Positions 4,169 through 48,390 of a DNA stretch of 64,000 bases are shown here, piece by piece; the first letter of the stretch is position 1; each line of letters starts with the position of its first letter. Below the pieces are notes generated by a model. It was not told the DNA's origin, made no database searches, and saw only the letters and a program-made list of their open reading frames with translations. This DNA is from Cinnamomum chago (Eukaryota > Streptophyta > Magnoliopsida > Laurales > Lauraceae). Both the position numbers and the translations under genes were made by a program. The stretch spans positions 29,921,501 through 29,985,500 of the forward strand of contig CP142455.1 of NCBI GenBank assembly GCA_038049695.1, written 5' to 3'.

Positions 4169-6685
4169 TTATTTAAAAGATATTTTTCTAGCTTTTTGAG
4201 ATGCAAAAATATTGATTAAATTTTTATATTCAAGTTTTGTTAATATATCTTTTTCAATAGATAATATAGCTAACTCATTTAATCTTTCTTGTGACATAGT
4301 TGATCGGAGATAAGATTTTATTAATTTAAGTTTCGAAAAACTTCTCTCCGCTGAAGCAACTGTTACTGGTATTGTTAACAATATTCTAAAAGCTATACAT
4401 GCATTTGGAAAACAATCTAATCGTTTTATATAAGTTAGGGTTTCAGCTGGAGTATTAATTTCAGATTGTAGAACTTTTCTTAATACAGTTAACTCTTGAA
4501 ATAAATCTAAACCATCAATATCAGAAAATAAGTCATGCTTAAAAAAAGTTTCAAGGTTAAGACAATAACTTTTCAAACTATCATCATCTAAGGATTTTAA
4601 TTTTTTAAAACAAAATAAAAAACCAAAAATATTTTCATATATTTTGAATTGTTCAAATCTACTCTTGATCGAAGAAATAGCTAGATCAACTATAAATAAA
4701 AAATACTCAATTCTAAAAGACTCTTTAGCTGATAGTGTTACTGCATTTTCAATTGTATCACCAAATTGTTTTTTCCTAAAAATTTTACGTTTTTCTCGAA
4801 ATTCTGGTTCTATTTCCATTTCAAGTGCAATCTCTTTTCATGAAATCAAAGCAGAGTAAAATCCATTTTCTCTATATGATTCGAAAAAAGAAATAAGTCC
4901 TTTTAATTGATCAATAGCAACATCAATATGCATGTCTTTGGATTGTAAATTTTTACTAACTGTGTTAACATCAAATAATATATCATACCAAATATTCATA
5001 CCCAATAAAAATTCAAAGTTTTCAATCTCATAAGTAGCTAAGCATGTGGCTTCACTTCTTGTTTTAGGATCTTCACTAATTTTTGCTAATTGAATTAAAG
5101 CATCTCGTATTTTCGGAGTCTGATACTTGATTGCTTTAACACTTTCGATACGACTTTCTCATCACGTTTGAGATAATGATTTAAGAGTTAACATAGATAT
5201 ATTATCTTGTAAAATTTTTCATCGTTTTGTTGAAGAAGAAAATAATGAGTATATACGTTGTAATACTCCAAAAAAAGATATAGCTTTAGGACAAGAGTTA
5301 GCTATATCACAAAGTACGAGGTTAAGATTATGACATCCACATGGTGTGTAAAATGCTCTTGGATTTATATCTAGTAGTCTTTTTTGTACACCTTGATGTT
5401 TTCCTTTCATATTAGATCCATTATCATATCCTTGTCCTCTTACATCTTTTACATCAAGTCCAAGTTTTTTAATTACATTTATAAGTTCATCAAAAAGGCC
5501 TTTCCTAGAGGTATCATCTACTTCCAAAAATTCTAAAAAATATTCTTCTATTTTTATTGGACTTGTTGAAATATCTATACATCGCAGTATAAGAGTCATT
5601 TGTTCTTGATGACTTGCATCAGGAGTACAATCAAGTATTACTGAAAAATATTTTGCTTCTTTAATCTTATTAATGATTACACTTTTAATTTCAGAAGCTA
5701 ATATTTGTATTAATTCATTTTGTATCTTATGCCCAAGATAATGATTATGAATTTCACCATCTTCAATTCGTCGAACATGTTCTTGCATTATTGGATCAAA
5801 TTCCGCAATCATTTCAATTAAACTTAAAAAGTTTCCATTGCTGTCTTGATATATTTTCTCATTCTTCCCATGAAATGCCAAATTATTTTTAGCAAGAGTT
5901 TTTACCACAGCTAAAATTCTTACAAGTACTTTTTTCCAATAATCTTTCTCTTTGTTAATTTGTTCTTGAATATTTTCATCAATAGTTTTATTTTTTGACA
6001 ATCTTATTTCTAAACCAACCCATGAATTCATGTTAGCAATATGTTCATTAGTTGTTTCATGAGTTTTGAGCTTATAACTAAGATTTTTCCAATCTTTAGT
6101 TCCTTCATTAACTAATTGACTTGTGCTAGGTTTTGAATTGAATAACTTACAACAAAAGCAATATACTTTATCTAAATCTTTTGAATATATTAACCATTTT
6201 CTATCATGCTTTTCTCCGTTTGACAATTTTCGAGTGTAATATGTAATAGAAAAATGTCTATTATTTTCATCATTAGGAAAGTCTAAATTATTTTCCCTAA
6301 TAGGACCTCTTTCAACTAATAAGTCTCTTAATTTTGTGTCAATATTTTTCCATTGTCTTGGATCATAGATATTTATTGGAACATAATCTAATAGTTCACT
6401 AACATGTTCACATTCTTTATCATTTTCTGCTTCACTAACAAATTCACATTCTTTACCAATTTCATTTTCTTTTAAATCTTTTTGGCATTCCGTTGATTTT
6501 TCTATATTATTTAATTGTTCAATCGTTGAATCATCATTTGAATTTTTTGTTGTTGTTGGTTTATCACTAATAACAAATTTATCGAGTGCTCCTTTTTGAG
6601 ATTCAATAAATTCATCTTGTTTTCTTTTTTTCTTTTTTTTTTTTTTACGTTTTTCACATCTAGAATCATATCTTCGAGTAGACAT
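4169..6685 (-). pseudogene. hAT transposase pseudogene (zinc finger MYM-type 1-like)
   Basis: The coding frame runs 6685 to 4169 with no frameshift; both long ORFs (5219-6685 and 4169-4819) are in the same frame. The N-terminus is lysine-rich. A TTF-type zinc-finger region follows (CFCCKLF, then KLKTHETTNEH), then a DUF4371-like core (ILDCTPDASHQEQM), and at the C-terminus the hAT dimerisation segment (TVASAERSFSKLKLIK). Four in-frame TGA codons interrupt it, at 5219-5221, 5162-5164, 5159-5161 and 4838-4840. The codons between them still read as transposase. From the family pattern, the first three fit TGG or CGA changed by a single transition. The copy cannot make full-length transposase, but a non-autonomous role in trans remains possible because its ends are good. 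Confidence 0.9.
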
Positions 6686-6905
6686 ACTAATTATATAACT
6701 TGCAGTTACTACAATGAAAAATTATAACACAAAATTTATAAAAATTAAGTTAAACTAAAATAAAAGTTCAAGAACAACACAACCTGGTACTGTTCCGTTC
6801 TTCGGTACTATTGGCAGTAAGATTGATCCTTTTGTAGCAACAACATTCAAGCAAAAGCAAAAGGCAGCACTTTCGTTCAGAAACTTCACGCAGAGAAATT
6901 CATCC

Positions 6906-26356: not shown

Positions 26357-27351
26357 TTAGGCCCTTTCAGTGGAGGCGCCTCTTAGTTTTTGTCCGACAG
26401 GTTTGTGCTGGGAGTCGACGTTGAGACGATGAGTGGCGACCTTGGGATCAATCCCTTCAAGATCTGCATGTGACCATGCAAAGATGTCCATGTTGTTCTT
26501 CAGGAAGTTGGTCAAGCGGCGGACCAAGTCTTCAGGGAGAGAATAGCCAGTGTACACTTTCCTATCAGGGAGGTCTTCATTTAAGACCACAGTGGTGAGT
26601 GCTTCAACTAGTTCTCCCCTCTCAATGGTGGAGTCATCCCTTGGATCAAGGGTCTCAATCTGCAACGCTTCCTTCTGTTTTTTATCCTTTACTGAGGAGA
26701 CGTAGCATTCCCTGGCGGCCAACTGGTTTCCCCTGACCTCTCCGATTCCATTAGGGGTTGGAAAGCGGAGAATGAGGTGATAGGTGGAGGGAACAGCTTT
26801 TAACGGGTTGAGAGCAGGTCGCCCCAATATGATGTTGTAAGCTGACGGGCAGTCTAGCACTAGGAAGTTGACCATGATTGTGGAGCTTCGAGGTGCTACT
26901 CCGGCAGTGACTGGAAGCGTGATCGCTCCCAGGGGGTACACCTTCTCTCCTGAGAAACCAATAAGAGGCGACTTGACAGGTCGTAGCCTTTCCCTATCTA
27001 GGCTCAACTTGTCATAAGCATCTGCATACAGTATGTCAGCGGAGCTGCCACTATCTACCAGGATCCTATGCACCTGGAAATTGGCGATGGTCAGGGATAT
27101 TACCAATGGGTCGTCGTGGGGGAGCTGCACTCCTTCCAGGTCCCTATCCGAGAAGGATATGACCTCGCCTTCTACTTGCCGGGGCACTTTGGACGGACGT
27201 GCTTCATCAATATGTCTGGCCTTTCTGGAGTGGGCCTTCATCGCTGAGAGCGACTCCGCCGATCCTCCGGAGATAGTGTGAATTTCTCCGAAGGGCTGCT
27301 GATTCTCTTGATGACAAGGTGGTGACGGTGCTTGAGTTCTCCTAGCAACAT
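26357..27351 (-). pseudogene. Tat gag-pro region: protease with DSGSSADIL
   Basis: An open frame continues from the insertion boundary (27356) through GEIHTISGGSA, typical of the gag-protease junction in Tat elements, into an aspartic protease with LVDSGSSADIL. It goes on through ILGRPALNPLKA to the start of reverse transcriptase (DMDIFAW-like segment at FAWSHADLEGIDP). A TAA at 26357-26359 separates it from reverse transcriptase in the same frame; one codon later the frame resumes, so a single CAA-to-TAA change is the simplest explanation. Confidence 0.9.
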
Positions 27352-27854
27352 ATTGGTGTTAGGGTTTTTATAGATTGCAATTTGATGGATGCATTATCAT
27401 TCTAGCATCATGTGATTTACACACTTGCATTGGTTTTTAAATAAACTTGAAATCTAGTTTTATACATGCATTGGTTTTTAGATTTGGAAAAGTTTGTGTT
27501 ATATGCATGTTTTGGTTCTAAACTTGGATGCATTGGTTTTAGAACCCAAAACTCTTTTGAAAACCTAATTCCTTGTGCATTATATTTGGAAAATCATCTT
27601 GTGAATTTAGGTTTGAGTTTTGCATACATTCATCACAAAAAGAATCATTTGTGTATGCAATTTCATTTGAAAAGAGTTTTCAAGAAATCAAGCAAGCCTT
27701 TGTTTTAAAAGTTTTGAAACTTTTTAGGCTTTTTATGTCATGTTTTAAAAACCTTTAGAATCTTTAAAACATGTTTTCCAAGCTTGATTTAGTGGCCAAA
27801 AAGTTCCCCCAAGCAAAACTGTGAAAAATGCATTTTTTGGGAATTTTGGTGCTG

Positions 27855-28060
27855 CGGGGTTAACCATGGGGTTAACCGGGGTGGTCAACCCGCAGTGTAG
27901 CCGGTTAACCGGCCATGTTAGCCCGGTTAACCGGCCACAGTGCAGGATGACCCAAAACACAACGGCTCTTTTTATGACCGTTGTGCTTGGCCGGTTAACC
28001 GGCCTGTCATGGCCGGTCAACCGGGGATATAGCCGTTGGGGCTGTTTTGGCTATAAAAAG
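27855..28060 (+). promoter_or_regulatory. CCGGTTAACCGG palindrome cluster and TATA box of LTR 1
   Basis: Three perfect 12-bp palindromes CCGGTTAACCGG stand at 27901-27912, 27923-27934 and 27991-28002. A variant CCGGTCAACCGG lies at 28013-28024 and degenerate GGTTAACC copies further upstream. TATAAAAAG follows at 28052. CG-rich palindromes upstream of the LTR TATA box are reported for Sireviruses. An identical cluster lies in LTR 2, with TATA at 33441-33449. Confidence 0.8.
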
Positions 28061-28224
28061 GAGTTCTTTCCCTTTCCAAAAGTTGGGATTTTTAAGCCCC
28101 TCCTTGAGAGGTATTGAGGCATATCAAAAGGGAAAAGAACCAAGGGATGAAGGGGAAGATTAGGAAAGCTAAAGCTTGGATTAATGAAGTTAAACCACCA
28201 AGTAGGCTCTTCCTTTCTTAATCA

Positions 28225-29470
28225 TATGTTTTCATGCTTTGTTTTATTTTTGGTAAATCATTTCTAGCATGATAAACTATGTTTGTGTTGTGTCCTTAAC
28301 ATATGTTATGTTTTGAGTTGATTTATTATTTTGGACACAACACCATATGATTCAATTCAAGTAGTACTTAACTTTGGTAAATCTAAGTAGATCATGTTAA
28401 TGTAAAAACCTTTGAAATCATATGTAACATGATCCATATACTTGGTTGAATCTTTGGTTGTTGTTTTCCATCATAAGAACATCTCTCTCAAAACTATCTT
28501 ATGTTTTGGATTCAACTTCTTTACAAATCATATGTTTTCATGTTTTGCTTTATCATTGGTAAATCTTAGTAACATGTTAATCTATGATTTGTTGTATCCT
28601 TAGCATATTCTATATTTTGAATAGATCTATTGTTTTGGATACATCACCATTGATTCATCAAAGTAGTACTTTATCTTTGGTAAATCTAAGTAGATCATGT
28701 TAATGAAATATGTAACATGATTCATATACTTTGTTGAATCTTTGGGTGTTGTTTTTCCATCATAAGAAAATCTCTCTCAAATGTATCTTATGTTTTGGAT
28801 CCAACATCATTACAAATCATATGTGTATTATTGTTTTAAAGTATCACAACTTGCCTTACTTTGATTGGTAAATCATTTTCAAGTTGTCCTTATAATTACA
28901 TATGATTTGTCCCTCTCTTCAATCAAATCTATTTTTATGTTTTGAGCTTCTTTGATGATTTGATTGACATCCCTATGCATCACATGTTTAGAGCTAATCC
29001 ATTTCATACAACTTGTGTAACTTTGATATCATTAACAAGTTGTTACTTTTAACATGTGATTGCATCATATCCTCAATCATAAATGTTTTATGATCTTAAA
29101 CTTTCAAAAGCCTTAGGCATACATTTATGAGCTTTCATTTTCAAAATGATTGAGGACCACACACACACACTTCATATGTTTTCATCTTTGCATTCATAGT
29201 GTGAGTGTGTATTAGAATTTCATTTCCATATCCGTCTAATTAAGAGGCAATGTAATGAGCTTAATAGAATCTCCATCAAGTGTATGTTAGACACTAATTA
29301 GTGAGATAACCAACCTTGTGGTTGAAGAGGTTATTGCTTAGCCTTTAAAAGCATAGTGTAAAGGTTGATGTTAAGCCTTGAAAAACATCAATGTAAAGGT
29401 TATTGCTTAGCCTTGAAAAGCATATTGTAAAGGTTATTGCTTAGCCTATTGAAAAGCATAAATAGTGGAA
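28225..29470 (+). repeat. LTR inverted-repeat series with TTGGTAAATC loops
   Basis: Examples: arms TCATGCT (28232-28238) and AGCATGA (28266-28272); GATCATGTTA (28390-28399) and TAACATGATC (28425-28434); ACAACTTG (28846-28853) and CAAGTTGT (28880-28887). Several loops contain TTGGTAAATC. Near 29330-29460 four ~35-bp units each have short complementary arms around an AGCCTTGAA-type loop. Three use TGCTT/AAGCA and one uses GATGTT/AACATC, so both arms changed together. The same series recurs at about 33613-34859 in LTR 2. Confidence 0.75.
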
Positions 29471-29721
29471 ATCCGGTGGGGTGTTGGATCACAAGCCGGT
29501 AGTGGATGTAGGCATTGAGGCCGAACCACTATAAATACTTGTGTAATGGTGATTGCTTTGTGATGATTCTTTTGTTAGCTCCCGCATCTTGTATGATTAA
29601 TCATCACATATGACTAGTTTGTTTTTAAGAAGTTAAAATTGATTAAAATTGGTCATAGTTGTAGCTCACCCTATTCACCCCCCCCCCCCCTCTAGGGTTC
29701 GGATCCCCATGGACTTACAAG

Positions 29722-29733
29722 TGGTATCAGAGC
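29722..29733 (+). other. Primer-binding site 1 (initiator tRNA-Met)
   Basis: TGGTATCAGAGC, two bases after the LTR end. Its duplicate is at 35110-35121. Confidence 0.9.
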
Positions 29734-29865
29734 GGGTTACTCCATTTTAGGGCTTAACAACCCGGAGTTGATCCTTGCTAGATTTGAACCCTAGTGTTGT
29801 GTTTTTATTGCATATCTTTATGATGAATTCCACTATGTTTGAAAATGTTTTTCCCTAGCCTCTTT

Positions 29866-32160
29866 GCACCACTCTAAGACTTTTCTAAGTTATATCTTCT
29901 AGAGTTGGTGAGTCCTCAAAGTGATCTCTCAAGGACACATTTTCAAGACCTTAGGTGTATTTTCAAAGGTAGACTATTTGAGTAACCTTAAGGCCTTGAT
30001 ACCCCTAGACCAACCTATGCTTTTTAGTTATATCTTTTTGTTGGTCATGTCACATTTGCATTTTGTTTCTTTAAAGTCACATCTTTTAAAATGCAATGTT
30101 TCTTTGTGATCATTTGATTTTGTCTTCATGAACTTTTATAGTTATATCTCATGGTTTTCAAAATCCTTTGATTGCAATTTTTTCATGATGGATTTGCATG
30201 TTGTTCATATAGTAATATCTCTTGTTGTGCATATCTATTCATGATCAATTGATTGTGATTGCAAAAGCTTTCATAGCTAGACTTTTCATGATCAATTGAT
30301 GTTGGAAAATCATTTGATGTTTGTCATAATTATATCCTTTTTGTAAATCAAATGATTTAAAGCTATTTAAGTTTTCCATTGATTTTCAAGCTATATCTCT
30401 TGGTATGGAAAATTTGTGAGTGTCTATTGTTTTTCAAATTGAAAACTTTACAATAGTACACTTCTTGTTTTTCAAAATCACTTGCTCTTAATTCTATAAA
30501 TGATTCTTTGTTGGAACTTCATACATTGAAGTGATTTGAAAAACTTTGGAAAATGTTCTAAGCTTTATTAGTTATATTTCTAGAAGCATTTTCCTTGAAT
30601 TTATTTCCTTGTGCCTAATTATGATTATATCATTTGGAAGGAAATAATTCTTACAAACAATTTGCATCTTTGCTCTTTTAGTTACATTCTTTATGCAAAT
30701 TGATGTTGGTGTCTTACATTGCTTGGTTGGATATGGTTTCATTGATTTGCATGTTTGTGCCTTAACTTGGTATATGTTTTCATTAATGCAAATTGATGAG
30801 TGTTTATGTGCTTTATAGTAAAATCTTGTATTTGAGCTTTTTAAGTACATTTGTGATTTAATGTGCTAAGTTCATTTGGTGTAAACCCCATATCTTTTTC
30901 CATTGCATTGTAAGCTTAGTACATTTGCTAAGAGTGAAAATGTCACATGATAGATTGATCCAAAGGGTTTCATTGATCCCTTCAACTTCATACCTTCTTG
31001 TGCTTAAATAGTAATATTCTTTTTTATGAATGGTATGAGTTAGATCTTGAGTGTTGATTAATCCTCTCTATGCAAATGTCAAATTGTTCTATGTATGGTT
31101 GTGACCTTAGTTGTATTTGTAGAAACCATACTAGAACCCAAATCCATCCTCTATGCCTTATAGTTATTTCTATATGGATGGTTATGATGTTGATTCATGT
31201 AGATTCTCTTGGTATCATCTTTATACATGTTTCAACTTCATAGTAGTGATCTTGATCATATGAAACTCTTTGAAACCCATTTCTCATATTTCTATATGGT
31301 TGATGGATATCTTAGATGTTAAATTCATATGATTTAATCACTTTGTAAATTGCATGCAATTCAAAGTTATATCCTTTTGCATTGCAATTTACCTTGTTCA
31401 TCACTATGCTCAATAGTTATATCTTTAAAAGTGATGAATATGCATTTATGATGCTTGATGGAATTTTGTCACATTCTTGTTCTTTATCATGTTATCAATT
31501 TCAATTGGTTTCAATTGGTATAATGTTTGATTGATTTGATCTCTTGTGAATGTGATAAATCTTGTGTGCATTGGATTGAACTTGATAAGTTATATATTTG
31601 TTCCATGTCACACACCATTAGCATCATAATGCTCATGTTGCCACCTCTTTTGCTCATATAGGTATACCTTATGACCACCATGTTTATGTGTTCATAATAT
31701 TGGTTGGTTATTAATTGAGGTTGGCTTCATGTTTGAATTCCATTTCACTCATTCATGCACCATAATAGTCACATTTAATGTTTGAATGAAATGAGTTCAA
31801 AACCTTCATAGCATATGCTTTCCATAGTTAGATTATTTGATGCTATGATTATTAAACCCCATTGCTTCATGGATAGCTCTAATTTGGATTTTTCCTAATA
31901 GGTATATTTCTAAATCCATTTTAGAGTGATTGATTTATTAAGTCATATCCTAAATCTCAATTGGTATTCCTTGTTTGTCCAATTGATATCCATGATTGCT
32001 TTTCCCATTGACCTAGCTCTCTTTTGGTAATTTGATCATATTGAGCTTTATAGTTATATGAATCTAATCCTTTCCTTGAAGTTGACCCTCACTTGGTTAA
32101 ACCATTTTCTTCTTGTACCTAATAGTTAAATCTTTGTCAAAAGTTTGACAAAAGGAGATA
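29866..32160 (+). repeat. Internal stem-loop array with TAGTTATATC loops, copy 1
   Basis: Consecutive inverted repeats about 60-75 bp apart fill the interior. Arm pairs read directly: GACCAAC 30008-30014 with 30040-30046; AATCATTTGAT 30308-30318 with 30347-30357; GGAAAATGTTCTA 30548-30560 with 30581-30594; CAATTTGCAT 30658-30667 with 30693-30702; GTAAATTGCATGCAA 31345-31359 with 31377-31392; TTCATCACT 31397-31405 with 31430-31438; TCATAGCAT 31806-31814 with 31840-31848; CTCTAATTTGGATTT 31877-31891 with 31912-31926. Loops are mostly 20-28 nt and share a TAGTTATATC-like core. Stem sequences differ from unit to unit. No ORF above ~90 codons exists here. Confidence 0.85.
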
Positions 32161-32165
32161 ATGGA

Positions 32166-32745
32166 TTGAGGGGGAGTGTAAACTTTCATAGGAAGTATTA
32201 GTTTTGATCAAATTGACCCTTGGATTGCCTTTGAGCCCTTAGAGACTACTACCTCACATGATAGCCTGTTATGTACTTCATTTTCGATTTCATTTGTTAA
32301 CAGGTGCTACTAATGGTATTTTCCTTGTTTCATGTGTGTAGGTACCTTTGCAATTTAATGGCAAAGGGGGAGAAATTATGCAAGTTCTCAATAGGGTGAA
32401 GAGAATGTCCAAGCTTCCTAAGGGGAGAGTTGTGTATGATCTTCTACAAAGGGAGAGAATGCATAGCTTGCCAAAGGGAGAAAGAGGCATGGTCAAAGGG
32501 GGAGAGCTAATAGAAGAAAGAAGCTTGGAAGCTAAAGAAGATGCTTGGATAAAGAAAAAAAGAAGAAAGAAAGCTTGAAGAGTGATCAAGCTCCAAGCAT
32601 CATGAAGATTGAAGCCCAAGAGCCCAAGCAATGAGAAGGAGCATCCAAGAAGATTTCAAGCCTTGTCCAGCTGAGGGGGAGCTGAAGACTAAGTGTGTAA
32701 TCTCGGTGGTGAGTGAGTTTGCCATCAAATTGCAAAGGGGGAGAT
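32166..32745 (+). other. Multiple purine tracts and 76-codon ORF at the interior's 3' end
   Basis: At least six purine tracts of the type CAAAGGGGGAGA or GAGGGGGAG occur between 32166 and the LTR, the last being the presumed functional polypurine tract. A small ORF (32348-32578) reads KGGEIMQ... and is lysine-rich; it looks like translated purine tract rather than a known protein. Repeated polypurine tracts before the 3' LTR are described for Sireviruses. The duplicate is at 37554-38131. Confidence 0.7.
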
Positions 32746-35107
32746 TGTTAGGGTTTTTATAGATTGCAATTTGATGGATGCATTATCATTCTAGCATCAT
32801 GTGATTTACACACTTGCATTGGTTTTTAAATAAACTTGAAATCTAGTTTTATACATGCATTGGTTTTTAGATTTGGAAAAGTTTGTGTTATATGCATGTT
32901 TTGGTTCTAAACTTGGATGCATTGGTTTTAGAACCCAAAACTCTTTTGAAAACCTAATTCCTTGTGCATTATATTTGGAAAATCATCTTGTGAATTTAGG
33001 TTTGAGTTTTGCATACATTCATCACAAAAAGAATCATTTGTGTATGCAATTTCATTTGAAAAGAGTTTTCAAGAAATCAAGCAAGCCTTTGTTTTAAAAG
33101 TTTTGAAACTTTTTAGGCTTTTTATGTCATGTTTTAAAAACCTTTAGAATCTTTAAAACATGTTTTCCAAGCTTGATTTAGTGGCCAAAAAGTTCCCCCA
33201 AGCAAAACTGTGAAAAATGCATTTTTTGGGAATTTTGGTGCTGCGGGGTTAACCATGGGGTTAACCGGGGTGGTCAACCCGCAGTGTAGCCGGTTAACCG
33301 GCCATGTTAGCCCGGTTAACCGGCCACAGTGCAGGATGACCCAAAACACAACGGCTCTTTTTATGACCGTTGTGCTTGGCCGGTTAACCGGCCTGTCATG
33401 GCCGGTCAACCGGGGATATAGCCGTTGGGGCTGTTTTGGCTATAAAAAGGAGTTCTTTCCCTTTCCAAAAGTTGGGATTTTTAAGCCCCTCCTTGAGAGG
33501 TATTGAGGCATATCAAAAGGGAAAAGAACCAAGGGATGAAGGGGAAGATTAGGAAAGCTAAAGCTTGGATTAATGAAGTTAAACCACCAAGTAGGCTCTT
33601 CCTTTCTTAATCATATGTTTTCATGCTTTGTTTTATTTTTGGTAAATCATTTCTAGCATGATAAACTATGTTTGTGTTGTGTCCTTAACATATGTTATGT
33701 TTTGAGTTGATTTATTATTTTGGACACAACACCATATGATTCAATTCAAGTAGTACTTAACTTTGGTAAATCTAAGTAGATCATGTTAATGTAAAAACCT
33801 TTGAAATCATATGTAACATGATCCATATACTTGGTTGAATCTTTGGTTGTTGTTTTCCATCATAAGAACATCTCTCTCAAAACTATCTTATGTTTTGGAT
33901 TCAACTTCTTTACAAATCATATGTTTTCATGTTTTGCTTTATCATTGGTAAATCTTAGTAACATGTTAATCTATGATTTGTTGTATCCTTAGCATATTCT
34001 ATATTTTGAATAGATCTATTGTTTTGGATACATCACCATTGATTCATCAAAGTAGTACTTTATCTTTGGTAAATCTAAGTAGATCATGTTAATGAAATAT
34101 GTAACATGATTCATATACTTTGTTGAATCTTTGGGTGTTGTTTTTCCATCATAAGAAAATCTCTCTCAAATGTATCTTATGTTTTGGATCCAACATCATT
34201 ACAAATCATATGTGTATTATTGTTTTAAAGTATCACAACTTGCCTTACTTTGATTGGTAAATCATTTTCAAGTTGTCCTTATAATTACATATGATTTGTC
34301 CCTCTCTTCAATCAAATCTATTTTTATGTTTTGAGCTTCTTTGATGATTTGATTGACATCCCTATGCATCACATGTTTAGAGCTAATCCATTTCATACAA
34401 CTTGTGTAACTTTGATATCATTAACAAGTTGTTACTTTTAACATGTGATTGCATCATATCCTCAATCATAAATGTTTTATGATCTTAAACTTTCAAAAGC
34501 CTTAGGCATACATTTATGAGCTTTCATTTTCAAAATGATTGAGGACCACACACACACACTTCATATGTTTTCATCTTTGCATTCATAGTGTGAGTGTGTA
34601 TTAGAATTTCATTTCCATATCCGTCTAATTAAGAGGCAATGTAATGAGCTTAATAGAATCTCCATCAAGTGTATGTTAGACACTAATTAGTGAGATAACC
34701 AACCTTGTGGTTGAAGAGGTTATTGCTTAGCCTTTAAAAGCATAGTGTAAAGGTTGATGTTAAGCCTTGAAAAACATCAATGTAAAGGTTATTGCTTAGC
34801 CTTGAAAAGCATATTGTAAAGGTTATTGCTTAGCCTATTGAAAAGCATAAATAGTGGAAATCCGGTGGGGTGTTGGATCACAAGCCGGTAGTGGATGTAG
34901 GCATTGAGGCCGAACCACTATAAATACTTGTGTAATGGTGATTGCTTTGTGATGATTCTTTTGTTAGCTCCCGCATCTTGTATGATTAATCATCACATAT
35001 GACTAGTTTGTTTTTAAGAAGTTAAAATTGATTAAAATTGGTCATAGTTGTAGCTCACCCTATTCACCCCCCCCCCCCTCTAGGGTTCGGATCCCCATGG
35101 ACTTACA
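32746..35107 (+). repeat. Second Sirevirus-like LTR
   Basis: 2362 bp, apparently identical to 27357-29719 apart from C12 in place of C13. It joins directly to the purine tract of unit 1 on its left and to PBS 2 on its right, so it serves as 3' LTR of unit 1 and 5' LTR of unit 2. Confidence 0.9.
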
Positions 35108-38100
35108 AGTGGTATCAGAGCGGGTTACTCCATTTTAGGGCTTAACAACCCGGAGTTGATCCTTGCTAGATTTGAACCCTAGTGTTGTGTTTTTATTGCA
35201 TATCTTTATGATGAATTCCACTATGTTTGAAAATGTTTTTCCCTAGCCTCTTTGCACCACTCTAAGACTTTTCTAAGTTATATCTTCTAGAGTTGGTGAG
35301 TCCTCAAAGTGATCTCTCAAGGACACATTTTCAAGACCTTAGGTGTATTTTCAAAGGTAGACTATTTGAGTAACCTTAAGGCCTTGATACCCCTAGACCA
35401 ACCTATGCTTTTTAGTTATATCTTTTTGTTGGTCATGTCACATTTGCATTTTGTTTCTTTAAAGTCACATCTTTTAAAATGCAATGTTTCTTTGTGATCA
35501 TTTGATTTTGTCTTCATGAACTTTTATAGTTATATCTCATGGTTTTCAAAATCCTTTGATTGCAATTTTTTCATGATGGATTTGCATGTTGTTCATATAG
35601 TAATATCTCTTGTTGTGCATATCTATTCATGATCAATTGATTGTGATTGCAAAAGCTTTCATAGCTAGACTTTTCATGATCAATTGATGTTGGAAAATCA
35701 TTTGATGTTTGTCATAATTATATCCTTTTTGTAAATCAAATGATTTAAAGCTATTTAAGTTTTCCATTGATTTTCAAGCTATATCTCTTGGTATGGAAAA
35801 TTTGTGAGTGTCTATTGTTTTTCAAATTGAAAACTTTACAATAGTACACTTCTTGTTTTTCAAAATCACTTGCTCTTAATTCTATAAATGATTCTTTGTT
35901 GGAACTTCATACATTGAAGTGATTTGAAAAACTTTGGAAAATGTTCTAAGCTTTATTAGTTATATTTCTAGAAGCATTTTCCTTGAATTTATTTCCTTGT
36001 GCCTAATTATGATTATATCATTTGGAAGGAAATAATTCTTACAAACAATTTGCATCTTTGCTCTTTTAGTTACATTCTTTATGCAAATTGATGTTGGTGT
36101 CTTACATTGCTTGGTTGGATATGGTTTCATTGATTTGCATGTTTGTGCCTTAACTTGGTATATGTTTTCATTAATGCAAATTGATGAGTGTTTATGTGCT
36201 TTATAGTAAAATCTTGTATTTGAGCTTTTTAAGTACATTTGTGATTTAATGTGCTAAGTTCATTTGGTGTAAACCCCATATCTTTTTCCATTGCATTGTA
36301 AGCTTAGTACATTTGCTAAGAGTGAAAATGTCACATGATAGATTGATCCAAAGGGTTTCATTGATCCCTTCAACTTCATACCTTCTTGTGCTTAAATAGT
36401 AATATTCTTTTTTATGAATGGTATGAGTTAGATCTTGAGTGTTGATTAATCCTCTCTATGCAAATGTCAAATTGTTCTATGTATGGTTGTGACCTTAGTT
36501 GTATTTGTAGAAACCATACTAGAACCCAAATCCATCCTCTATGCCTTATAGTTATTTCTATATGGATGGTTATGATGTTGATTCATGTAGATTCTCTTGG
36601 TATCATCTTTATACATGTTTCAACTTCATAGTAGTGATCTTGATCATATGAAACTCTTTGAAACCCATTTCTCATATTTCTATATGGTTGATGGATATCT
36701 TAGATGTTAAATTCATATGATTTAATCACTTTGTAAATTGCATGCAATTCAAAGTTATATCCTTTTGCATTGCAATTTACCTTGTTCATCACTATGCTCA
36801 ATAGTTATATCTTTAAAAGTGATGAATATGCATTTATGATGCTTGATGGAATTTTGTCACATTCTTGTTCTTTATCATGTTATCAATTTCAATTGGTTTC
36901 AATTGGTATAATGTTTGATTGATTTGATCTCTTGTGAATGTGATAAATCTTGTGTGCATTGGATTGAACTTGATAAGTTATATATTTGTTCCATGTCACA
37001 CACCATTAGCATCATAATGCTCATGTTGCCACCTCTTTTGCTCATATAGGTATACCTTATGACCACCATGTTTATGTGTTCATAATATTGGTTGGTTATT
37101 AATTGAGGTTGGCTTCATGTTTGAATTCCATTTCACTCATTCATGCACCATAATAGTCACATTTAATGTTTGAATGAAATGAGTTCAAAACCTTCATAGC
37201 ATATGCTTTCCATAGTTAGATTATTTGATGCTATGATTATTAAACCCCATTGCTTCATGGATAGCTCTAATTTGGATTTTTCCTAATAGGTATATTTCTA
37301 AATCCATTTTAGAGTGATTGATTTATTAAGTCATATCCTAAATCTCAATTGGTATTCCTTGTTTGTCCAATTGATATCCATGATTGCTTTTCCCATTGAC
37401 CTAGCTCTCTTTTGGTAATTTGATCATATTGAGCTTTATAGTTATATGAATCTAATCCTTTCCTTGAAGTTGACCCTCACTTGGTTAAACCATTTTCTTC
37501 TTGTACCTAATAGTTAAATCTTTGTCAAAAGTTTGACAAAAGGAGATAATGGATTGAGGGGGAGTGTAAACTTTCATAGGAAGTATTAGTTTTGATCAAA
37601 TTGACCCTTGGATTGCCTTTGAGCCCTTAGAGACTACTACCTCACATGATAGCCTGTTATGTACTTCATTTTCGATTTCATTTGTTAACAGGTGCTACTA
37701 ATGGTATTTTCCTTGTTTCATGTGTGTAGGTACCTTTGCAATTTAATGGCAAAGGGGGAGAAATTATGCAAGTTCTCAATAGGGTGAAGAGAATGTCCAA
37801 GCTTCCTAAGGGGAGAGTTGTGTATGATCTTCTACAAAGGGAGAGAATGCATAGCTTGCCAAAGGGAGAAAGAGGCATGGTCAAAGGGGGAGAGCTAATA
37901 GAAGAAAGAAGCTTGGAAGCTAAAGAAGATGCTTGGATAAAGAAAAAAAGAAGAAAGAAAGCTTGAAGAGTGATCAAGCTCCAAGCATCATGAAGATTGA
38001 AGCCCAAGAGCCCAAGCAATGAGAAGGAGCATCCAAGAAGATTTCAAGCCTTGTCCAGCTGAGGGGGAGCTGAAGACTAAGTGTGTAATCTCGGTGGTGA

Positions 38101-38131
38101 GTGAGTTTGCCATCAAATTGCAAAGGGGGAG
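35108..38131 (+). repeat. Second interior with PBS 2 and stem-loop array, copy 2
   Basis: A repeat of 29720-32743 shifted by 5388 bp. It includes PBS (35110-35121), the stem-loop array (~35254-37548) and the purine tracts. It ends at CAAAGGGGGAG and passes abruptly into Tat gag sequence. Confidence 0.9.
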
Positions 38132-38605
38132 TCTTCCGTGTGGGACGACAGGCGGAGCTCCAGCAGAAGTCCCCTCGGCGTGGGCGCCATAATGACGGGC
38201 ACCCAGGGCGCCATGAGGATGGGCGCCCAGGGCTTGGGCGCCCAGGGGTAGTCCTCGACCCTAGGCACCCAGGGGTTGGGCGCCCAGGTGAGGGTGGCGT
38301 CGGTTGGCGCCTCGGCCCCAGGCACCGTGTGGACGGGCCCCCGGGTGAGGTGCCCCTCTGCGTGGAGCAACCAGTTGCTCTGAGCGTGGTACTTCCTGCG
38401 GTCATGCACCTAGTGCTCCTCCCTGGCTCGCCAACATGAGCTGCAATATTTGTTGTTTCTGAGTCACCAACTGCTGCATGGTCTCCAGCATCTGCTGAGG
38501 AGAGGGAGCGGGAGCATTCGGTGCGGGGTTGGTCGGTGGAGGATTACCTTCGCCTTCCCGCGAAGGATTACCATCTTGTCGCCTTGTTGACCTGGTGATC
38601 GGCAT
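38128..38605 (-). pseudogene. Tat gag N-terminal fragment with GGGCGCC repeats
   Basis: The gag start is the ATG at 38603-38605 (MPITRSTRRQDG, the usual opening of Tat gag). It is followed by a proline-rich stretch and a glutamine-rich helix (QQMLETMQQLVTQKQQ). A stop ends it at 38402; a TAG and a repeat-rich stretch with GGGCGCCC units (38180-38300) follow. The rest of gag is absent: the sequence runs into the Sirevirus insertion, and on its far side (27356) reading resumes just before protease. About 1 kb or more of gag was therefore lost at or after the insertion. Confidence 0.8.
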
Positions 38606-45500: not shown

Positions 45501-48390
45501 TCATTGAAGCGATTGCCTGTGAACACGGTATCCCAAGTACTTCCCATTTGTGGTTCAAGTCCGATGATCAAGATGAACAATGTCTACATAGTTTACAGAC
45601 TAAACTTGAAACTTGACTAGACTGGCAACGCATACATGCAACCTCCGGGCTTCTTCTGTTTTGTGTCTTAGCATCTTCTCAGTGTATGGAGTCAAACGAC
45701 TATTAATATTGAGGTTTTCAGCATGTCGTTTTTGGAAGAACTCCATCAATCTAACTCTTATCTCCTCCACTTACTTAACTATCGCTAAAGCTCGAGTGTC
45801 TTTCAACATGTTGTTGGTAAACTCAGCGGCATTACTTGTAAACATGTCGTCGGCCTTCAACAAATGCATTTACCCAATGCTGCCGATCAAATCCGTTTAT
45901 ATAATTATATGCATCTTGGCTGACAGCCTTAATGTCTTCCATAAACGCCTCATATTCACATGCCCTATATGCCTTTGCGGCACACCAGAATTTCATCACA
46001 ACTACCGGATCTTTGAAGGTTGATTTAATGTTTCCCGCGAGATGGCGACAACAGTAATAATGACTTGAACTTGGAATAATGTTTGCCAATGCAGGAACAA
46101 GGTGCTTCTAGCGATTGGAGGTAATTGTCAAATTCGTCAGTTCTCCTAATTATACCAAAAGATTGGCGAGGAACCACTCCCAGTTGTCGCGCCTTTCTGC
46201 CTCCGCAAACGCAAAGGCTATTGGAAACAGCTTGTGGTTTCTATCGAGGGTCATGGACACCATTAAAACTCCTGGGTAGTTGCCACAGAGATGTGTTCCA
46301 TCGACCGCAATCATTGGCCTAAGCGATGATGTGAATGACCGAATGCAATAACCAAAAGACCAAAAAAATCTCTTGAACTTGTTGTCGTCTGACGTATCAA
46401 TATTTGTGACAGTACTCGGATTCATCATTTTCAACTCCTCACAATACAGAGGGAGGATCTTAAAAGATTCTTCATATGAGCATCTAACTATGCGCAGTGT
46501 AATGTCATTTGCCATATGTGCCAATCTGTAAGAAATTGTGACACCAAACTCCATTTGATAGTCATTCATTATTTCCTTTAGCCTAATGTTGTGATTTAAC
46601 TGTACTTTCTCCAAAATGTACTCCGCAATCAGTTCTGATGATGCCCGCCGATGTGCAGTGCCCATCATTGGCTTTGAACATTTATGGGTTGGGTTGTAGG
46701 TTCGAACCTTGAAGTGTGGTCCACTCCCAATCATGGATGCATGAATGCGCCATGGGCAGTCACATTCCTTGCAACGTGCAATGACTTTGAACTGTTGTGT
46801 CTTTAGGTGCCAAAGAGTGAAGTTGTTGTATGTTGCAAATTTCTCTAAAGTCCTCCTAAAATCATTACGATTCTGGAATTCACACCCTAGCCACATTTCT
46901 CGAGATGAATTGTGTTCCATCTTAGTAACAAATTCATTCGGGACTATGTCATCTTTGAATATAACTTTCCGATTATGCGAGCTATGTTCTCCGACAATCA
47001 ACATCAGAAGCCTTTTGCCTCTTATACTTGAACTCCCTGCAATATTGGTTCCCATGTTCCTAGATTCAATTTCAATATTGTAACAAACTCTCTGTCATCA
47101 ACCATGTTCACTACACCAACACAGCCAACAGGAACGCAATAAGTTTCTGAGAAATGAATGCTAGCAATGTTCTGCCCTTCTTAAAAATGAATGTCGTCGT
47201 CTTCGCATAGATTGACAGTAGGAATTTCATAACTTTGAACGGGAGGTACTTTGCACTTCACATAATGTTTGCTCTTCGAACAATCAATTTGTTTGCCTCG
47301 TAAAGAACGGATGTCCATCCCAAATGACCTTCAAGATAAACACATGGAGAAAACTACATTAGACATTAACTATAAATAGTATTCTGCATTATTTAAAATA
47401 CCTTAAAAGTAACTTATGTACCTTGTCTGTTCTCTAATATGTTTGGCGGAACCAATTGGTCTTCTATTGATGTAGAAATATATCATATTTGTCTTGTGGT
47501 TTGCAAGTGTTAACATGCACTTGATGTCTCTATCATCCTCTATGGCAGCCAATGAAAACACGTGACCATTTTGATAGAGATAATGTATGCTTAGGTTCTC
47601 ACAAGTTTCCACCCAATGTGAACTTTCAAGATCTATATTCACCAATTCGGGAAATGTTATGACGCTTTGAATGGACTCATCTTCTGTTTTTCGCCTTCAT
47701 ATACCGGGTGAATCATGTCAAATTTAAATTCCCCGTCGTTGTGGAAAATCATAATCAACTCACCACTCGACATCCTAATTAAAAACAAAAAACAAATATT
47801 TAGGCATTATTATTGTACAAACATATACTTAAAAATGCCAACAGCACCTCATTAACCAAAGAAGTGTGAGATTGCAAGGGGCTAAAGAGGGACACTTGGT
47901 GATTCTTAATAGGTGGATCTTATATGGTACATGGATGTGATTTATTTCTTTTAAGAATTTCATCAAACAACGAAAACGAACAACCTACATCACTAGTGAC
48001 TCGGGATGTGGGCCCCATTTTAACAAACTTTTTATACCAATAAACAATACAAATGTCTGTGAGCTGGTCTCACTTCTTTTATACCAAAGTAAAAGGAAAA
48101 GCATAAAAAATGAGACATTATATTGATTTTTTCCATGTAAATTTGCAAAAGTAGGCATAAATGCACAAACCTCTTAAATGGAGATCAACAATCACTAAAA
48201 TGAAGTCAAAATGAGCAATAAAGTGAGTATACAAGCCCATAGAAATTACTTGCCTTCAGTTGGAGACAAAGTACAACTTTTGAGAAAGATATGGTAGAAA
48301 AAGAATGGAAACCAGGGGATGTATTTGAAGTTATATAGGGTGCGAAAAGAGACGATAGCGTCACTCAATATTTCTTTGAGTGACGCTATT
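42589..48390. repeat. Repeated TGACGCTAGCGTCA-type palindromes within the MULE
   Basis: The motif GTGACGCTAGCG or close variants occurs at ~42590, ~42620, 44493-44510 (perfect 18-bp palindrome AGTGACGCTAGCGTCACT), ~44550, ~44600, ~48350 and ~48380. Two copies lie just inside each TIR. It is absent from the flanking DNA I read. Confidence 0.8.
45211..47773 (-). pseudogene. MULE transposase pseudogene, multi-exon
   Basis: Read on the minus strand from ATG 47771-47773 (MSSGELIMIFHNDGEFKF). A frameshift occurs near 47690. An exon end at REQTR|GT near 47420 and an acceptor near 47330 imply an intron. A TAA lies in exon 2 (~47185), and a frameshift near 47060 leads into the long ORF 46150-47055. 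That ORF carries the MuDR-type N-terminal zinc-binding region (FKVIARCKECDCPWRIHAS) and the transposase core (MIAVDGTHLCGNYPG, ERRDNWEWFLANL). Downstream, the second catalytic aspartate position reads TSNR instead of the usual TSDR, next to a TAG. The SWIM-type finger (C.., then YGIPCSHAIASM) and a CCHC knuckle (CSNCK.RGHNR.SCR, two stops) complete it. It is dead by several independent lesions. Confidence 0.88.

Follow-up and report, generated by a model that had tools for sequence, protein, structure and literature searches.

How protein-less plant retrotransposons are recognized by the machinery of other elements is a long-standing question. LARD elements such as Sukkula combine long LTRs, a primer binding site (PBS), and a polypurine tract with a non-coding interior of several kilobases, and rely on other elements. 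The original LARDs are Gypsy-like, in contrast to the Sirevirus (Copia) hallmarks of the element described here. Retroviral packaging signals usually occupy a single compact 5′ region. TR-GAG elements are defined by LTRs and a gag frame, with no pol (PMC6022998). Sireviruses are marked by non-coding signals: the tract AGGGGGAG, repeated in the linker with its last copy 10 bp before the LTR, an AT/TG junction, an inverted repeat bordering the polypurine tract, and CGG-CCG palindromes in the LTR (PMC2829016); the passages describing these signals name no hairpin array, and the terms stem-loop and hairpin are absent from them. In packaging-signal systems, dispersed stem-loops share a common degenerate recognition motif (PMC6281560), and the RNA of STNV codes for coat protein only (PMC3593212). 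The Cassandra TRIM forms head-to-tail (LTR-interior)n arrays (PMC7215508). At the level of titles and abstracts, where a description in print could still be overlooked, we found no array of hairpins comparable to that reported below.

The element lies in a 64,000-nucleotide stretch of Cinnamomum chago DNA (the window) and comprises, head to tail on the plus strand, an LTR, an interior, a second LTR, and a second interior that runs to 38131, with no third LTR. The first LTR (27357–29719, 2363 nt) starts TGTTAGGG, finishes TTACA, and is rich in hairpins; the second spans 32746–35107. The PBS, TGGTATCAGAGC at 29722–29733, is presumably of the initiator-Met type. It is followed by a gag remnant at 29887–29993, corresponding by homology to the final ∼35 codons of gag in relatives described below: by BLAST, window 29887–30413 aligns with positions 1207–1709 of the relative L066, whose gag frame stops at 1313. 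The hairpin array (29866–32169) recurs at 35254–37557 within the second interior, and this duplication is 99.98% identical over 5387 nt. Between the first array and the second LTR lies a 3′ linker (32160–32745). As judged by frame length, the interior (29720–32745) lacks coding domains, the longest ATG frames in its three plus-strand frames being 66, 41, and 36 amino acids, in an element of at least 2 kb. Frame lengths and LTR layout thus bear out the initial annotation, made from the letters alone, which had described a retrotransposon interior without gag-pol. In the 1.06-Gb, 14-contig genome that was searched, two interior pieces each gave at least 40 scored copies (from 3443 and 4853 candidates) at 91%–100% identity. 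Among 20 fetched copies, all seven elements with both ends located carry 5-bp target duplications.

The Sirevirus signals are all present. The linker holds AGGGGGAG polypurine tracts at 32169, 32365, 32497, 32674, and 32736, the last of them starting 10 bp before the LTR at 32746, and the AT/TG junction is present; there are five copies in the interior and none in the LTR. A perfect 14-bp inverted repeat, CCATCAAATTGCAA / TTGCAATTTGATGG (32722–32777, arms 32722–32735 and 32764–32777), spans the last polypurine tract and the beginning of the LTR, with its left arm bordering the tract. Palindromes of the CCGGTTAACCGG type with a CGG-CCG core lie around 27857–28024 in the first LTR, as identified by inspection rather than by the published authors' method. 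Apart from the lineage of the lost pol, these features show the element to be a non-coding LARD-like LTR retrotransposon of Sirevirus type from which gag and pol have been lost. We place it with LARDs by content, since it has their LTRs, PBS, polypurine tract, target duplications, and, in the array, a conserved RNA secondary structure for which covariation itself is weak; its non-coding signals place it with Sireviruses. Unlike LARDs, it has a modular structure in which numerous short hairpins share a single loop core, its hairpin richness extends into the LTR, and the array is common to gag-bearing relatives. Unlike Sireviruses, it has this array where pol would be expected, and no pol was found. 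It shares head-to-tail (LTR-interior)n arrays with Cassandra, but its family's units are 5.2–6.0 kb long, and an Rfam scan of the window, in which no 5S was noticed, returned no match at the gathering score.

The most striking feature of the interior is the array itself, which is real. Perfect, non-overlapping hairpins (loop 8–40) with arms of at least 7, 8, 9, and 10 bp number 20, 13, 8, and 5 in 29866–32160, compared with shuffle means of 6.8, 2.1, 0.65, and 0.14; none of 200 shuffles reaches any of these counts. The initial annotation had proposed a comparison with shuffled sequence for inverted repeats of 8–16 bp, and this comparison goes its way, with 0/200 shuffles reaching 13. Enrichment is not significant in three control stretches of the window or at the 3′ end of the interior (32160–32745), and 1-kb bins within 27001–38000 hold 3–9 hairpins, versus 0–4 in the other bins. 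A chance origin is rejected by the shuffles and bins, and an ordinary tandem repeat by Tandem Repeats Finder, which shows no array in 29866–32160. When small mismatches are tolerated, 26 hairpins can be listed, with a median center spacing of 70 nt. The initial count of ∼30 units, a dozen of them with arms of 8–16 bp, was a fair description, but the longest perfect arm is 12 bp, longer arms being imperfect, and the spacing ranges over 48–246 nt rather than 60–75. Comparison of folding energy with shuffles, also proposed at the outset, gives plus-strand z scores of −8.3 and −8.15 for two 1-kb pieces and −5.1 for the minus strand of the kilobase that scored −8.3 (20 shuffles each).

In all, the array amounts to roughly 26–30 short stem-loops over ∼2.3 kb, which differ from one another in arm sequence but have in common a T-rich loop built on a degenerate TAGTTATATC core. 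Exact copies occur at 30025, 30139, and 31414, for example in the hairpins at 30008–30046 (motif at 30025–30034) and 31395–31440, the arms of the latter being unchanged among 20 other copies of the family. Allowing one change gives 11 matches (0.2 in shuffles) and allowing two gives 23 (3.0 in shuffles), 14 of which fall inside a listed hairpin loop. The loop motif had been recognized initially, and the two loops singled out then (30561–30580 and 31406–31429) do contain it. Across copies the core changes unevenly, with letters 8 and 10 slowest (0.3% and 0.7%) and letter 5 fastest (12.6%), so that the slow-changing letters make up only part of the motif. A PUF-like reading of the core was dropped as resemblance only.

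We examined pairing of the sequences flanking each motif, using the TAGTTATATC word and not pairing as the anchor. The longest helix between a motif's own flanks averages 7.09 bp, compared with 4.76 bp between flanks of different units, a sum reached in 0 of 20,000 permutations. All 12 array sequences from gag-bearing relatives show the same own-flank pairing, which at most 1 of 2000 permutations matches. The 5′ flanks of different units are slightly more alike than shuffled ones (5.12 versus 4.88; common word of at least 7 in 32 versus 18 of 253 pairs). The earlier statement that arms share no sequence between units is therefore nearly, but not fully, true.

The LTR is hairpin-rich like the array, with 16 perfect hairpins of at least 8 bp compared with 2.1 in shuffles. 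In 28061–29700, its arms differ among copies at 1.42% of cells, loops at 3.50%, and spacers at 2.85%, and 2 of 1639 circular shifts of the annotation give arms as low. Its units are partly duplicated from one another, and a loop word, TTGGTAAATC, used there as unit anchor, gave no significant own-flank pairing (1752/20,000).

The arms are the most conserved part of the array. Taking the window's 26 hairpins as fixed annotation, we counted departures from the commonest letter in 20 other copies; these amount to 1.54% of cells in arms, 5.40% in loops, and 3.71% in spacers. When the annotation is shifted circularly, 1 of 2294 shifts gives an arm divergence as low as that observed. When hairpins are called separately in each of 21 sequences, arm values are 1.2%–2.4%, compared with 2.3%–4.7% for direct-repeat pairs located by a similar rule; these control arms show no slowing, and ascertainment as the source of arm conservation is rejected. 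Among 41 sequences covering 31300–32200, the values are 2.05% (arms), 6.62% (loops), and 3.60% (spacers). The ordering holds for arms at greater distance: between arrays and their counterparts in gag-bearing relatives, arms, loops, and spacers differ by 10.6%, 27.5%, and 29.3% in region A and by 4.6%, 13.2%, and 8.2% in region B. Copies are also more stable when folded than versions of themselves with the substitutions randomly relocated, in 115/120 copy-window tests on the plus strand and 113/120 on the minus strand, with 63/600 simulations per strand as stable as the real copies; the copies in this set are related by descent, and its last two windows have 51 nt in common.

Single changes in Watson-Crick stem pairs favor G-U over A-C products, by 14 versus 3 types in the 21 sequences and by 16 versus 6 types (50 versus 8 cells) in enlarged sets; transitions outside arms show no comparable G-U excess. 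The excess is absent from LTR stems (7 versus 6) and from region A across families (10 versus 7 types, 30 versus 30 cells). Together, these data show that the array arms are under purifying selection on pairing and on sequence, and the main evidence for this constraint is arm conservation, not covariation. Stems had been described initially as “freely changing,” which is the reverse of what we find. The preference for selection on structure over plain tandem duplication, by contrast, is supported by the shuffles, arm conservation, and fold tests, and a suggested rewriting of both arms together applies to a few units, the arms otherwise keeping their sequence. The initial interpretation as a whole is thus partly supported.

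Covariation in the array stems is present but thin. In the hairpin at 31806–31848, the outer pair 31806/31848 is T-A in 24/41 sequences, A-T in 15/41, and unpaired in 2/41; however, mutual information is equal or higher at linked non-stem column pairs, and linkage therefore confounds this swap. Two other hairpins differ from their counterparts in gag-bearing relatives with pairing intact. Three stem pairs of the hairpin at 30467–30544 (30468/30543, 30470/30541, and 30481/30531) are changed on both sides, and the outer pairs of that at 30658–30702 (30658/30702 and 30659/30701) are rewritten yet paired. Because automatic alignment had paired one middle unit with the wrong partner, units were anchored by hand; in three of five middle units, selected post hoc after inspection, six both-sided changes leave 24/24 cells paired, beside 15 one-sided cells (10 G-U, 5 broken) and 93 unchanged. 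Arm-core anchoring of 33 sequences gives outer pairs paired at 0.92 and 0.79 with their own partner, compared with 0.80 and 0.58 with that of another type. In the automatic alignments, 3 types of stem pair altered in both arms still pair in region A and 6 do not, which is no better than slid controls (2/9 to 7/12 paired); the corresponding figures for region B are 4 and 3, and the middle region has 3 double Watson-Crick cells versus 44 broken. As proof of covariation, automatic alignment failed in all alignments tried; the compensating changes anticipated in family members are clear in the three hand-anchored units and weak elsewhere.

A relative able to supply protein, in that it bears gag, and sharing the array was found in the same genome. 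The upstream part of the first LTR (27357–27980), used as a query, matches 40 copies at 99%–100%, many of them in tandem, with units of 5.85–6.03 kb. We compared the interiors of four such relatives (L066–L069). Their gag-like frames encode 436 (L066), 383 (L067), 427 (L068), and 441 (L069) amino acids, those of L066 and L068 being open at the 5′ end of the stretch, and the two frames scanned have a CCHC knuckle at E values of 4e-4 and 1.2e-3, below Pfam's cut-off. In all four, the gag frame is followed directly by the same hairpin array and then by a linker with seven AGGGGGAG tracts. The window matches them at 73%–78% identity over 29887–30413 and at 85%–87% over 31069–32760. Gag is the sole coding domain seen in these relatives; as judged by the absence of long frames, neither the window element nor any fetched relative shows a pol. 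They fit the TR-GAG definition, differing from it in the 2-kb hairpin array that lies past gag, while the window element is without gag. The LTR of the relatives is ∼1.92 kb long, and beyond ∼27971 its identity to the window LTR falls to ∼75% where alignable. Since one LTR part is 99%–100% alike and the remainder ∼75%, the window copy is a gag-less/gag-bearing recombinant, and parts of the LTR have passed between elements with and without gag.

A search for Gag homologs found only four proteins, one of which (P0002) was used to search the genome, giving at least 85 scored copies from 8306 candidates; 35 of 40 full-length Gag matches are free of internal stops. The 2 kb downstream of each of 16 of these gag copies holds the array in eight (9–13 hairpins, 12–16 motifs) and lacks it in the other eight (1–6 hairpins, 1–4 motifs), so Gag does not require the array. 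Codons of the four gag frames differ by 57–66 non-synonymous and 22–39 synonymous changes, and selection on Gag itself therefore looks weak. Two array-less gag copies that we examined share linker type and a related LTR with the array-bearing ones and have a second frame that starts MARTKQT and contains a PF20167 domain (46.9 and 43.9 bits, cut-off 45). This second frame is not pol.

We tentatively read the array as a multivalent cis-acting RNA element, probably a set of packaging or assembly hairpins for the Gag of this clade, a reading to which we give appreciable but less than even weight. It draws on the pairing constraint, the common loop core, the fixed site after gag, and the exchange between gag-less and gag-bearing elements, which would be expected if element RNAs are co-packaged. 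One loop core would be displayed on many hairpins, and the stems, pairing solely with themselves, would set its copies apart. Either the clade's Gag, which has a CCHC knuckle and a coiled coil, or a partner protein would bind many of these sites, and such multi-site binding would package or assemble the element RNA. For the gag-less element, the retained array would be a ticket into its relatives' particles, with reverse transcriptase and integrase supplied by a putative pol-bearing element. The arrangement would work like packaging-signal assembly in MS2, STNV, and other single-stranded RNA viruses, where several stem-loops with unrelated stems share one loop motif, and the coat-only genome of STNV resembles the gag-plus-array relatives. 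In contrast to those viruses, the hairpins here lie in a dedicated non-coding cassette, stem sequence is conserved, and binding by Gag is putative. The position of arrays next to an open gag frame counts for a packaging role; counting against it are the equal maintenance of fold stability on both strands, the eight of 16 gag copies without an array, the weakly constrained gag frames, and the weak covariation in automatic alignments.

Array-less gag copies would be less puzzling if the array instead bound a host RNA-binding protein, a reader of U-rich sequence or of the loop core, and served export, stability, or translation rather than packaging. The core, short, U-rich, and with fixed letters, is like the targets of many host readers, but the array is strictly tied to an element clade with its own Gag, and most single-strand readers need no regular stems; we regard a host reader as somewhat unlikely. 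Base composition raises another alternative, in which the array is structured, CpG-free filler that would keep RNA length and shield the transcript or cDNA from silencing, with the loop motif secondary, its stems of 7–15 bp being too short for Dicer and the absence of CpG lessening methylation. The strong fold fits this reading. So does base composition: the 2295 nt of 29866–32160 contain no CpG although 52.5 would be expected, whereas the palindrome block of the LTR (27841–28060) retains 14 of 16.6. Plain methylation decay can also remove CpG, however, and filler leaves unexplained both the 23-fold loop core and the conservation of arms across families, making it the less likely of these two alternatives.

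The faster change of loops than spacers (5.4% versus 3.7%) and the rewriting of both arms in a few units could also reflect a mutational process, in which template switching during reverse transcription or repair copies arm onto arm and single-stranded loops mutate faster. Such copying would rewrite the arms, yet they hold their sequence (10.6% versus ∼29% for spacers), and it would yield neither a common loop core nor a G-U excess; we consider it highly improbable. A DNA-level module of dyad sites or cruciforms for a DNA-binding protein or chromatin, compatible with stability on both strands and with LTR stems free of G-U excess, is hardly more than marginal given that G-U exceeds A-C in interior stems and that the fold excess is greater on the plus strand (z −8.3 versus −5.1, same kilobase).

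A wider scenario is possible, although we hold it more loosely than the packaging role itself: the clade may have evolved a cassette of 20–30 RNA hairpins in place of pol, with a gag-less sub-clade parasitizing gag-bearing elements that would themselves depend on a pol donor. The genome of the gag-bearing elements would then be reduced to a minimum, a “shell gene plus address label,” comparable to that of a satellite virus encoding only coat protein, the gag-less sub-clade would retain the address label alone, and a three-tier chain of dependence would be written in RNA structure. The array is a countable cis-element, with a defined loop core, stems, and spacing; because it is constrained, multi-copy, and present with and without gag, recognition is directly testable. 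Orthologous units with differing loops and arms across copies provide natural replicates.

Several further observations concern the family and its surroundings. The unit at 27340–38170 halts on its right at GGGGGAG beside TCTTCC, its left flank terminates in CATATTGG, and it is flanked by minus-strand Gypsy-like frames; the missing third LTR could mean that a dimer derived from a circle was integrated, that a deletion occurred, or that the assembly is faulty. Equal-scoring copies mark tandem (LTR-interior)n arrays at C12:32222154, C12:44368297, C1:56562296, and C5:55724931–55825000, the C5 group being ∼100 kb long with a step of ∼5994 bp. Matching 5-bp duplications bound three of four tandem arrays examined, the 3′ end of the fourth having been missed. 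Two further loci, L029 and L030, were considered as autonomous partners and rejected, both being family members without long frames; in L029, an LTR is inserted into the array near the position equivalent to window 30762–30767, and the copy is in tandem at a 7.5-kb step.

The second frames of the two array-less gag copies lie at 1210–2001 in L075 and at 1071–1319 and 1368–2000 in L088, and start MARTKQTARR or MARTKQTWRR, followed by PF20167. We take these starts to resemble the histone H3 tail, and the frame is a possible histone mimic inside a retrotransposon. Elsewhere in the window, frames at 4169–6721 (minus strand) and 46150–47094 (plus strand) look by eye like hAT-type and MULE-type transposases, respectively.
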